From the NCBI GenBank assembly GCA_016213455.1, contig JACRAG010000094.1:1-6319 (forward strand): a stretch of DNA of 6,319 nucleotides. Direction: 5' to 3'. Positions 2,049 to 6,319 of this stretch are shown here, piece after piece (positions within the stretch are counted from its first letter, which is position 1; every line of letters begins with the position of its first letter). The notes beneath the pieces were generated by a model that was not told where the DNA came from, made no database searches, and saw only the letters and a program-made list of their open reading frames with translations. This stretch comes from Anaerolineae bacterium (GTDB taxonomy: Bacteria > Chloroflexota > Anaerolineae > Anaerolineales > Anaerolineaceae). The position numbers and the translations under genes are program-made.

Positions 2049-3146
2049 ATGGTAGAAACCCGATTGCCCGAATTTATCCCCGGATTGAAACTGAGCGAGA
2101 TGTATTACCGCGAAGCTGTGCGGCCCATCTTGCAGCGCTCTTTTCCCGATCTCAAGCACGCCGCGGCGTTGATCGGGTTTGGCTCCGACGTGATCGGCTT
2201 TGATGATCTGCGCTCGCGCGACCACATGTGGGGACCGCGCGTGGTGCTGTTCCTGCCGGAAGAGCGCTTTGGCGAGATGGAAAGCGCCGTGTGCGACAAA
2301 CTGCGCGCCGGCCTGCCCACCTCTTTCCGCGGCTACCCCACCAGCTTCGGCACCCCCGATTCGGAGGGTGTGCGCCTGCTGGAAGAGCGCGAAAACGGCC
2401 CGGTGGACCCCTTTATCGACATCACCACCCTGCCGGCCTTCTTCCAGAACGAAATCGGCTGGGACACCCGCCGTCCGCTGACCACCGCCGACTGGCTCAC
2501 CTTCTCCGAACACAAGCTGCTCACCCTCACCGGCGGCGGCGTGTGGCACGACGAGCTGGGCCTGGAAAGCGCCCGCCAGGCGCTGGCTTACTACCCCAAA
2601 GAGATCTGGATGTACCTGCTGGCCTGCGCGTGGATGAAGATCGGGCAGGAAGAGCCGTTTGTGGGCCGGACCGCCGAAGTGGGCGACGAGATCGGCTCGC
2701 GCATCATCGCGGCGCGCATGGTGCAGTCGGTCATGCACCTGTGCTTCATCATGGAGCGGCGCTACGCCCCGTACAGCAAATGGTTTGGCACCGGCTTTAG
2801 CCGCCTGGAGATCGCGCCGCTCATCCAGCCCAACCTGACCGGCGCGCTGGAAGCCAACGATTTCCGCACCCGCGAGCAGTACCTCAGCCGCGCCTATGAA
2901 ATCTGCGCCTGGAAGTTCAATTCGCTGGACCTGGTCAAGCCCGTGCCGGGGCGCGTGACCTTCTTCCACGACCGGCCATTCAAGGTCATTCACGGCGACG
3001 CAATTGCCGGGAAGATCATGGAAGCCATCAGCGACGAACAAATCCGCGCCATCCCCGGTTATGTCGGCTCGGTCAACCAGCTCAGCAACTCCACCGATGT
3101 GATCTCATACAACGCGGTCACCGAACGACTGAAAGCCCTGTACTAA
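2049..3146 (+). CDS. DUF4037 domain protein (nucleotidyltransferase-like)
   Basis: A 365-aa cytoplasmic protein that I match to the DUF4037 family by its two conserved blocks. The N-terminal block (about 40-64) reads G45-S46-D-V-I-G-F-D52-D53...S56-R57-D58-H59-M-W-G-P-R, resembling the GS...D.D signature of nucleotidyltransferase-fold proteins. The C-terminal block has V205-G-R-T-A-E-V-G-D-E-I-G-S217 and E236-R-R-Y-A-P-Y-S-K-W-F-G247, in a mostly helical region. No signal or transmembrane segments are seen. The biochemical activity of the family is not established as far as I know; nucleotide transfer is inference from the fold-like motif. The start ATG 2049 has a good Shine-Dalgarno, and a strong terminator begins 6 nt after the stop, so this is the last gene of the unit beginning at 1602. 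Length is full for the family as I know it. Confidence 0.85.
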   Translation: MVETRLPEFIPGLKLSEMYYREAVRPILQRSFPDLKHAAALIGFGSDVIGFDDLRSRDHMWGPRVVLFLPEERFGEMESAVCDKLRAGLPTSFRGYPTSFGTPDSEGVRLLEERENGPVDPFIDITTLPAFFQNEIGWDTRRPLTTADWLTFSEHKLLTLTGGGVWHDELGLESARQALAYYPKEIWMYLLACAWMKIGQEEPFVGRTAEVGDEIGSRIIAARMVQSVMHLCFIMERRYAPYSKWFGTGFSRLEIAPLIQPNLTGALEANDFRTREQYLSRAYEICAWKFNSLDLVKPVPGRVTFFHDRPFKVIHGDAIAGKIMEAISDEQIRAIPGYVGSVNQLSNSTDVISYNAVTERLKALY

Positions 3147-3152
3147 GCAAGC

Positions 3153-3185
3153 AAAAACCTCTCCAGAAAACGGAGAGGTTTTTTT
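3153..3185 (+). terminator. Rho-independent terminator, probably bidirectional
   Basis: AAAAACCTCTCC (3153-3164) pairs perfectly over 12 bp with GGAGAGGTTTTT (3172-3183), with a 7-nt loop AGAAAAC. The + strand reading ends in seven T (3179-3185). Read on the - strand the same stem ends in five T, so it can also stop transcripts arriving from the CPBP protease gene. It sits just after the DUF4037 stop. Confidence 0.93.
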
Positions 3186-3271
3186 ATGGGTTCGAGGTTT
3201 CAAATCTGGGCCCTGGAGGCTCTGCGAGAACGCCGTGGCGATCTTCCACTTTTGTACCACGCCTGTAGAAT

Positions 3272-3348
3272 TCCCTCTTCCCAACCTTCTCCCATCGGGA
3301 GAGGGTGCGCCGGGCTTGGACGGCGCGGGTGAGGGAGTCCTGACTCCC
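3272..3348. repeat. REP-like palindromic intergenic element
   Basis: The gap 3186-3362 has no gene that I can support. It contains a cluster of inverted repeats. CCTTCTCCC (3285-3293) pairs with GGGAGAGGG (3297-3305, one G-T pair). GCGCCG (3307-3312) pairs with CGGCGC (3321-3326). TCCCTC (3272-3277) pairs with GAGGGA (3331-3336) and encloses both. A fourth hairpin, GGGAGTC/GACTCCC (3333-3339, 3342-3348), shares bases with the outer stem. The CTCCC..GGGAG plus GGTGAGGG layout resembles dispersed palindromic elements in GC-rich bacterial genomes. No T-run follows, so it is not a classical terminator. A single copy is visible, so its repeated nature is inferred. Confidence 0.55.
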
Positions 3349-3362
3349 TTGTCCTTACCGGC

Positions 3363-4359: not shown

Positions 4360-5796
4360 TTAATCGGGATAAATGGTCGCAGCCGCGAAGTGATCGCGCT
4401 CGACCGACTGCCAGCTTTCGCCGGTATCATTGGCAATATAGCCCCCCAGCAGGGGCGAAACCGCGCGGATTTCCTCAGCCACGCGCTGGGCAGCCCGGCG
4501 CATGGAAAAGTGTGCGTTGGCCGCCGACCGCAGGCTGATCAGATGCAGCGCGCTGCGCAGGTTGAGGTCCATCAACACGCGCCGGTTGTAGCCGTTGGGC
4601 ACCACATAGGCGGCTGCCGCGGGAAGGCTGGTCTCCAGCTGGCTGAAGGCCAGGTGCGCAGCCTGCATGGCTGCCCGGTAGGGCTGCTCAAAACCAGCCT
4701 CCTGGATGAAGCGCGGCAGGGCATAGCCCAGGCGGGTGCTGAGCGGCTGCACGGTCTGGGTCATCATGCGGTGGCGCTTCAACTCAAAATACCCGCCCTG
4801 GTCCAGGGTCAGGTCGATGGTGTAGCGCGCGTATTCCAGCTCGCGGGGCGGAAGGTCATGCCGCCCGCGCCCACCCAGCAGTGTCTCTGCCAGCGCTGTC
4901 CGTTGATCCGGCGACATGGCGCGCACACGGTGCAGCGCCTGTCCAAAGCTGACCGCACCGGCGCGGTACAGTGCCGCCGCCAGCACGCGCAGTTCGCCGT
5001 CCGCGTCGCAGGCTTCCAGGTGACACCAATCCTCGGCACGGTCCACGCCGGGCAGTTCCGCCGCAGCCACGCCGAAATCATGCGCCACCTGTTCCCAGTA
5101 GGGCACCGCCTGGACATATTTGATCAAGGTCGGCACGCGCATCTCCGCCACATGGCGGATCTCATCGCCCATCTGGCGCACTTCCGCCAGCGGGTGAGAG
5201 AGCATCTTGCGCAGGGCATGCTCCAGCGCGCGCGCGTTGATGGTCATGCCCACGTTGGCCAGGGCCGCCGCCGGCAGCAAAAAGCGGCACACATCCACAT
5301 AATCCGAGCGAATGCGCCGCTCCAGGGCCGCATCCGATTCGCCTTCCTTGCGCGGTGTGCGCGCAGCCACCACCTGCCGGACCGGCTCCAACGATTGCTG
5401 GTAGGTCTCAAAGAGCATCTGCACCGTCTCGCGATACAGCCCCAGCAGGGGGTGTCCGTCCAGTTCGGTCGGGGTGTGGAAATCCTCCGCGCCCCACTTC
5501 TGGTAGCGCGTGGATTTTTCGGTGTAGGAGGCCAGCCGGTTGGATTCCAGGCATTCCACCGCCAGGCGCGAGATGTTCTCCACAGCAATGTGCAGCACGG
5601 CATGTTCCGCCACCGAGGCATGACCGTAGCCCACCACCCACTTTTCGTGGAACTCGGCGGACCGTTCTTCGGTCAGCTCTGCGGCGATTTGGCGAAAAGA
5701 TTGTGGGGAACGGGATGTCTTGGCGAACGCCACCGCGATCGTCTCGGGCGGCAGGTCCATCGGGTCCAGCAGATAAACGTCACGTTTGGGGGTCAC
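4360..5796 (-). CDS. Tandem ThyX-like (FAD-dependent thymidylate synthase family) protein
   Basis: A 478-aa protein, about twice the usual ThyX length (roughly 210-260 aa), made of two ThyX-like halves. Classical ThyX methylates dUMP using methylene-tetrahydrofolate, NADPH and FAD. N-half: G58-H59-A-S-V-A-E64-H65, then N86-R87-L-A-S90-Y-T-E-K-S95-T-R97-Y98, matching the family signature RHRxxSxNxxSxRY except that the RH is replaced by SN; its closing helix has N187-A-R189. C-half: R341-H342-R343 is intact but the following serines are replaced (MMTQTVQPLSTR), GHxxxxEH is missing, and the closing helix shows N412-L-R414 and A428-H-F-S-M-R433. The GTG at 5796 is preferred: GGAGGT lies 8 nt before it, and the family-like sequence starts there, while the upstream ATG 5832 adds 12 residues inside ribF. 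The gene overlaps ribF by 17 nt. Whether it makes dTMP is open. Confidence 0.82.
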   Translation of the reverse strand: MTPKRDVYLLDPMDLPPETIAVAFAKTSRSPQSFRQIAAELTEERSAEFHEKWVVGYGHASVAEHAVLHIAVENISRLAVECLESNRLASYTEKSTRYQKWGAEDFHTPTELDGHPLLGLYRETVQMLFETYQQSLEPVRQVVAARTPRKEGESDAALERRIRSDYVDVCRFLLPAAALANVGMTINARALEHALRKMLSHPLAEVRQMGDEIRHVAEMRVPTLIKYVQAVPYWEQVAHDFGVAAAELPGVDRAEDWCHLEACDADGELRVLAAALYRAGAVSFGQALHRVRAMSPDQRTALAETLLGGRGRHDLPPRELEYARYTIDLTLDQGGYFELKRHRMMTQTVQPLSTRLGYALPRFIQEAGFEQPYRAAMQAAHLAFSQLETSLPAAAAYVVPNGYNRRVLMDLNLRSALHLISLRSAANAHFSMRRAAQRVAEEIRAVSPLLGGYIANDTGESWQSVERDHFAAATIYPD

Positions 5797-6319
5797 GGGC
5801 CAATACCTCCAGTGCCTTGCGAATATCAGCATGAATCTGGTCGATCAATTCCTGCACAGAAGCGAAGCGCAGTTCGCTGCGCAGCTGCTCCACAAATTCC
5901 AGGCGCATGGTTTTACTGTACAGTTCGCTGGCAGCGCCGGGCAGGTGGGTTTCCACACGCAGCGGCGCATGATTGCCAAAGGTCGGGCGGACGCCCACGT
6001 TGGTGACTGCCGGATGCCTTTTGCCTTCAACAATCGCCCAGCAGGCATATACGCCGTTGGCGGGCAGCAGTTTGTGTTCCCACAAATCCAGATTGGCAGT
6101 CGGGAAACCGATCTTGCTCCCGCGCCCATCGCCGTGCACCACCGGGCCTTCCACACTGTAAAAACGCCCCAACTGGCGGGCGGCATCCGCCACGCGGCCC
6201 TCCCCCAGCAGCGCGCGCACCTGGCTGGAAGAACCCTGCCCGCCTTCCAGCACCACCGGCTCCATGCGCCGCACCGTGAAGCCCATCGCTTCTCCCAGGC
6301 GGCTCAGGGTGGGCAAATC
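5780..6319 (-). CDS. ribF: Bifunctional riboflavin kinase/FMN adenylyltransferase, N-terminus outside window
   Basis: The last 179 residues of RibF; the frame is open to the right edge, so about the first 130 residues (the nucleotide-binding HxGH part) are missing and the TTG at 6316 is not a start. Visible first is the end of the FMN adenylyltransferase domain with S30-S31-S32-Q-V-R35, corresponding to the SSTxIR motif. The riboflavin kinase domain follows: LGRFYSVEGPVVHGDGRG, then G71-F-P73-T74-A75-N76, the flavokinase PTAN motif, then NVGVRPTFG, RVETHL (its Glu is the expected catalytic base) and the usual C-terminal helix ending QIHADIRKALEVLA. The enzyme phosphorylates riboflavin to FMN and adenylates FMN to FAD in the cytoplasm. 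Its 3' end overlaps the ThyX-like gene by 17 nt, so the FAD maker and a FAD-binding enzyme family member are translated from one message. Confidence 0.95.
   Translation of the reverse strand, partial: DLPTLSRLGEAMGFTVRRMEPVVLEGGQGSSSQVRALLGEGRVADAARQLGRFYSVEGPVVHGDGRGSKIGFPTANLDLWEHKLLPANGVYACWAIVEGKRHPAVTNVGVRPTFGNHAPLRVETHLPGAASELYSKTMRLEFVEQLRSELRFASVQELIDQIHADIRKALEVLARDPQT
5805..5810 (-). promoter_or_regulatory. Ribosome binding site deciding the GTG start of the ThyX-like gene
   Basis: GGAGGT on the - strand, a full Shine-Dalgarno core, lies within the 3' end of ribF and 8 nt before GTG 5796. No comparable site precedes ATG 5832. This supports a GTG start inside ribF and likely translational coupling. 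Confidence 0.8.

Follow-up and report, generated by a model that had tools for sequence, protein, structure and literature searches.

A gene on the minus strand of the window, a 6,319-nucleotide stretch of DNA (contig JACRAG010000094.1) from an Anaerolineae bacterium of the Chloroflexota, encodes a tandem ThyX-like protein in which the active-site residues of a flavin-dependent thymidylate synthase (FDTS) are divided between two Thy1 halves of one chain. Two such chains would probably imitate the ThyX tetramer, with two complete sites for flavin and deoxyuridine monophosphate (dUMP) and two dead ones, and we predict the protein to be the cell's thymidylate synthase.

In the FDTS site as set out by a review of FDTS structures (PMC6514825), in Mycobacterium tuberculosis (Mtb) numbering, subunit A supplies R95-H96-R97 and R199, subunit B supplies S71 and R190, and subunit C supplies R87, S105, R107 and Tyr108. 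The 3gwc chain numbering printed by HMMER agrees with these positions. Classical ThyX/FDTS, a D2 homotetramer that binds FAD and methylates dUMP with methylene-tetrahydrofolate and NADPH, has the RHRx7S motif and carries the full residue set in each of four identical subunits. The window protein resembles classical enzymes such as Thermotoga maritima TM0449 and Mtb ThyX in the Thy1 match of both halves, in the modelled fold of the C-half and in the residues for flavin adenine dinucleotide (FAD) and dUMP found in the pair of halves, but RHRx7S, R199 and S71 do not occur together within either half. The features are as follows, with residues numbered along the 490-residue open reading frame (ORF).

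4360..5796, minus strand: tandem ThyX-like gene; 478 residues from GTG 5796, 490 residues counted from ATG 5832
5113..5784, minus strand: N-terminal Thy1 half, residues 17-240; PF02511 100.7 bits at 5131-5748, best Pfam stretch 29-234
5602..5625, minus strand: GHASVAEH of the N-half, residues 70-77; Mtb S71 is S73 (FAD-binding, subunit B)
5536..5544, minus strand: SNR in place of RHR in the N-half, residues 97-99; Mtb 95-97
5503..5514, minus strand: STRY of the N-half, residues 107-110; Mtb S105, R107 and Y108 are S107, R109 and Y110 (dUMP residues, subunit C)
5230..5238, minus strand: NAR of the N-half, residues 199-201; Mtb R190 is R201
5203..5205, minus strand: Met210 of the N-half, at the place of Mtb R199
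4408..5049, minus strand: C-terminal Thy1 half, residues 262-475; PF02511 57.9 bits
4834..4845, minus strand: R-E-L-E, the C-half counterpart of GHxSxxEH, residues 330-333; conserved Arg330 where Ser71 stood
4768..4776, minus strand: RHR of the C-half, residues 353-355; Mtb 95-97 (FAD/dUMP residues, subunit A)
4528..4530, minus strand: Arg435 of the C-half; Mtb R199 (dUMP residue, subunit A)

The whole protein matches Pfam Thy1 (PF02511) with 156.6 bits over two stretches, above the gathering score, and each half separately passes the cut-off of 24.8 bits. The structure of the C-half is predicted to be a ThyX fold; on this and on the Pfam match we rejected a non-ThyX reading of the C-half. Our structure-comparison table is confined to the C-half, so its lack of N-half rows carries no weight. 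An earlier note, made from the letters of the window, had described an N-half that keeps GHASVAEH and the STRY end with SNR for RHR, a C-half that keeps RHR, and an N-x-R in each half, and all of these were found at the residues listed (the C-half N-x-R is NLR at 424-426). Its account of the losses in the C-half was right for GHxxxxEH and wrong for the serines: a Ser-Thr-Arg stands at 365-367, two residues farther from RHR than usual. The note had also overlooked the segregation of Mtb R199, the second arginine for dUMP, with R435 in the C-half and M210 in the N-half. The N-half further has a counterpart of R87 (R89); the C-half has Q345 at that place, L368 at the place of Y108, R426 as its R190 counterpart and no GHxSxxEH.

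This division is conserved in 254 aligned rows, comprising the window itself, 120 proteins from the database (the top-scoring 120 of 6291, from 7998 candidates scored), 29 loci from a survey of the class, 80 named loci (the best 80 of 518), 20 phylum tandems and 6 phage or viral-contig rows, minus 2 identical ones. They amount to 246 distinct cores, or 209 clusters at 90% identity; the window is present twice, as its own ORF and as the database copy P0001, and seven named loci duplicate the core of a database protein. One of four near-identical Vibrio phage matches was taken, and a tandem split over two contigs (G133) lies outside the residue tables. Among the C-halves R95, H96 and R199 are found in 254/254 rows and R97 in 252/254, and S71 in none. 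The N-halves never have R95, whose place shows 10 residue types, or R199; they have R107 in all 254, S105 in 253, Y108 in 246 with Phe in the other 8, and Ser (245) or Thr (9) at the place of S71. At the R107 place of the C-half, 17 residue types occur, with Arg in 124/254 rows, and Y108 is kept in 10. Because R95, H96 and R199 hold in every row, the pattern is not chance. The rows include L124, which fits the partition; single-domain ThyX rows were chosen by motif and so provide no control for it.

The sharing of roles A and C between the halves is firm, and a likely assembly follows the FDTS subunit map. The C-half alone could play subunit A and the N-half alone subunit C, and S71 points to the N-half as subunit B too. 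A tandem dimer, with two C-halves and two N-halves standing in for four subunits, would then hold two complete sites in which A is a C-half and B and C are N-halves, the make-up that the sequences match. The two sites of opposite make-up would be without RHR, R199 and S71, their S105-R107-Y108 set lost or drifted. Only one of the twofold axes would be exact in such a dimer, and should it be the axis that carries A onto D, the fourth subunit, two site make-ups would arise. Symmetry alone is no test, because D2 accommodates all three ways of dividing three residue sets between two halves; the actual test of the sharing is whether residues of one set that lie far apart segregate jointly. The earlier note's idea that the fused pair forms composite sites as a dimer thus gains support from the partition. 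We infer a pseudo-tetramer in which each chain binds one FAD and one dUMP, and which would carry out ThyX-type methylation of dUMP from methylene-tetrahydrofolate and would serve as the main thymidylate synthase.

The distribution of the gene bears on this last role. Our class survey covered 150 genomes, all at least 85% complete except the window's own assembly (61.6%). A Thy1 match was found in 113 of them (31 tandem, 17 split-type, 65 other, the tandem and split calls being checked against individual loci), and ThyA-family matches in 24/150 and in 0/31 tandem genomes; neither the window protein nor its 61.6%-complete assembly matches ThyA (PF00303, Thymidylat_synt). Among 201 sampled genomes of the phylum, 67 have both halves within one open frame (60 as one long match, 7 as two), a count from a window-type profile that misses T2-type tandems such as that of G030 (T1b, T2 and T3 are labels coined in this analysis) and that does not include G155 and G226, where one half is present or the halves lie on two contigs. 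The earlier note had suggested looking elsewhere in the genome for thyX or thyA. Over the tandem genomes, full-length ThyA is present in 0/67, with a weak partial ThyA-family match in two (G211, G324), and 64/67 have at most two Thy1 matches, which were not in every case confirmed as the two halves. Three matches occur in G101, G227 and G330, and the extra one in G101 is weak. L021 (G101:C13:37262-37702) is a very divergent Thy1-like frame of 319 residues with neither RHR nor GHxxxxEH; G101 has a window-type tandem elsewhere. Named tandem matches come from Anaerolineales and other Chloroflexi, among them the cultured species Anaerolinea thermolimosa, Longilinea arvoryzae and Bellilinea caldifistulae.

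Gene neighbourhoods add to this. The riboflavin kinase/FAD synthetase gene ribF lies upstream on the same strand in 45/80 named loci, and in 29 of 43 measured loci it stops no more than 60 bases from the expected tandem start. In the phage Tunturi_5 a gene for deoxycytidylate (dCMP) deaminase precedes the tandem gene. The replacement of other synthases, the ribF neighbour and this deaminase together point to synthesis of thymidine monophosphate (dTMP). Two further candidates for evidence were set aside: the distribution of thymidine kinase fails as proof that a synthase is needed, since the kinase is nearly everywhere, and dihydrofolate reductase, whose presence or absence alongside the tandem was considered as a probe of ThyX chemistry, is over the cut-off in 6/150 genomes and 0/31 tandem genomes but is rare overall and says little.

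Several observations weigh against a half-sited thymidylate synthase of this kind. The NCBIfam equivalog model for thyX (TIGR02170) gives 77.4 bits, short of its curated cut-off of 87.9. The 254 rows are mutually related and not independent. S71 is the sole residue that suggests the N-half as subunit B, because R190 does not segregate (Arg in 238/254 N-halves and 233/254 C-halves, and confined to the C-half in 5/20 phylum tandems). R87, present in 228/254 N-halves, is found in only 1/20 phylum rows and 2/6 phage rows, and most N-halves of types other than the window's have lost it. As to the cellular role, the window's assembly is only 61.6% complete, and thymidine kinase is present in 141/150 class genomes and 30/31 tandem genomes, so that salvage of thymidine could supply dTMP and possibly does. 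Genome G299, from the window's own family, a single contig and 99% complete, has neither a Thy1 nor a ThyA match, and a thymidylate synthase is therefore not strictly needed; G299 may live on thymidine salvage or on a synthase of another, unknown kind. Lastly, ribF adjoins only 3/29 class-survey tandem loci, which were taken with short flanks.

The fate of the second kind of site is where other explanations enter. In one, the sites without RHR have turned regulatory or ligand-binding, giving a synthase with built-in allostery. Plain drift does not account for the conservation of Arg330 in the C-half (Arg in 249/254), which also speaks against simply dead sites, and Glu333 at the GHxSxxEH place is invariant in the C-half of 215 window-type rows; Arg99 of the N-half (Mtb R97) is Arg in 233/254 rows, and a shifted Ser/Thr-x-Arg is retained in 123/254 C-halves, never with Tyr or Phe at the Y108 place, so that these sites may not be wholly dead. 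The main residues of the RHR-less site vary, however, as the R107 place of the C-half and the R95 place of the N-half show, and the conserved residues may do no more than hold the fold or an interface. We regard allostery as unlikely, though it is the likeliest of the alternatives.

Other accounts change the chemistry or the architecture. The chemistry might be a different flavin or nucleotide reaction, such as methylating some other pyrimidine nucleotide, with thymidine salvaged. The near-universal kinase would allow this, and the ThyX relative PolB can accept uridine monophosphate (UMP; PMC5954106); yet the pair keeps the FDTS residues for FAD and dUMP, save R87 and R190 in some branches, and the tandem takes the place of other synthases in the 67 genomes, which makes a different reaction quite improbable. 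Those homologues that carry a name (many of the 120 database proteins do not) are called ThyX, FAD-dependent or predicted alternative thymidylate synthase, or else hypothetical protein, names that would suit a simple ThyX duplication whose halves function independently, each with its own partner and with missing motifs tolerated. No half among the 254 rows, however, holds the whole residue set, the N-half lacking R95 and R199 and the C-half lacking S71 and a full S105-R107-Y108, and we give this account almost no weight.

A tree of the halves is consistent with a single fusion origin for the window, T1b, T3 and phage tandems: the N-halves of these types form one group (support 100/99) and the C-halves another (98/97). 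T2 (GHHTT-type) tandems, of which 4/9 rows are in the tree, stand apart on long branches, with a long-branch warning that leaves their placement unsure. Tandem ThyX with the same partition occurs in phages of about 280-310 kb, L159 (Tunturiibacter phage Tunturi_5) and L160 (Vibrio phage vB_VmeM-Yong MS32), and in the IMG/VR viral contigs L155-L158, of which L155 and L157 have RHN for RHR; the Vibrio phages have it annotated as hypothetical. Apart from Tunturi_5, these show no clear nucleotide-linked neighbour except a piece of adenylosuccinate synthetase beside L156, the neighbours of L155, L157, L158 and L160 not having been family-searched.

A second family, which we call S-type, is split or fused (L020, L032, L033, L056-L069 and P0121-P0240; genomes G052, G106, G045 and others of families f15, f24 and f36 in the same class). 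Like the tandem, it consists of two unequal Thy1 parts sharing one site, but the site is cut differently: GHxxxxEH and NxR (subunit B) are apart from RHR, SxRY and R199 (A and C), one of the 120 rows being unreadable at R190/R199. Some of its homologues are named Caldilineaceae. The S-type C-parts branch with single-domain ThyX, and the origin therefore looks separate. It is an evenly balanced possibility that ThyX tetramer symmetry was broken at least twice on different axes, A against B and C in the tandem and B against A and C in the S-type, both outcomes being obligate two-part, half-sited enzymes, with the abandoned sites of the tandem perhaps rededicated around Arg330. Separately, L025 (G097:C28) is a single-domain ThyX whose RHR, as read by eye, is separated from S-G-R-Y by an intein-like insert that includes an HNH-like stretch.

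A duplicated ThyX in Chloroflexi had been noted in 2009 by Valas and Bourne, in work on where the tree of life is rooted. The passage concerned states that the sequenced Chloroflexi except Dehalococcoides have only ThyX, domain-duplicated and uncharacterised (PMC3224940); this is very probably the family described here, and that passage, unlike the present residue partition, holds no analysis of motifs, active site or mechanism. In the open-access literature, as far as searched (subscription papers lay outside the search), we came upon no account of either the residue partition or the split form, and the accessible parts of PMC9931769, PMC1274311, PMC8316439 and PMC3498832 contain nothing on a divided ThyX; the family was thus known by name, and its divided site is undescribed there. 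Thermus thermophilus Thy1 (6j61) also has the ThyX fold and a longer chain, but by its title it has one Thy1 and an extra C-terminal domain, where the window protein has two Thy1 halves. If our reading is true, a natural homotetramer was turned into a half-sited two-part enzyme whose catalytic residues are allotted by subunit role, and half-specific mutants could separate the roles of RHR/R199 from those of S105/R107/Y108, which are inseparable in a homotetramer. The tandem form is carried by a third of the sampled phylum genomes (67/201), usually with no other known thymidylate synthase, and by some very large phages, and the S-type, cut in another way, gives a second version to set beside it.

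In the window the tandem gene lies within a minus-strand ORF, 5832-4360, whose first ATG is at 5832 and whose stop is at 4360. The start is most likely GTG 5796: GGAGGT lies eight bases 5' of it, within the end of ribF, and the database copy (P0001, 478 residues, from a 6319-base contig) begins at the same codon. The upstream neighbour, which shares 17 bases with the tandem gene, is listed here.

5780..6319, minus strand: ribF (riboflavin kinase/FAD synthetase), truncated by the window end; Pfam Flavokinase 7.2e-43

The top NCBIfam match of this ribF fragment is the bifunctional riboflavin kinase/FAD synthetase, below that model's cut-off. A CPBP protease gene comes next after the tandem gene on the same strand. 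Elsewhere in the window, 3-506 and 463-1593 are two consecutive L,D-transpeptidase-like genes (YkuD type, GTYWHN...SHGCxN; the Pfam match comes from the second only), followed by a 141-residue protein with no convincing Pfam match (1602-2027) and then a 365-residue DUF4037 protein (2049-3146). A hairpin at 3153-3186, read by eye, resembles a terminator and has a T run, and a dispersed repeat at 3262-3362 has two more partial copies in the same assembly.
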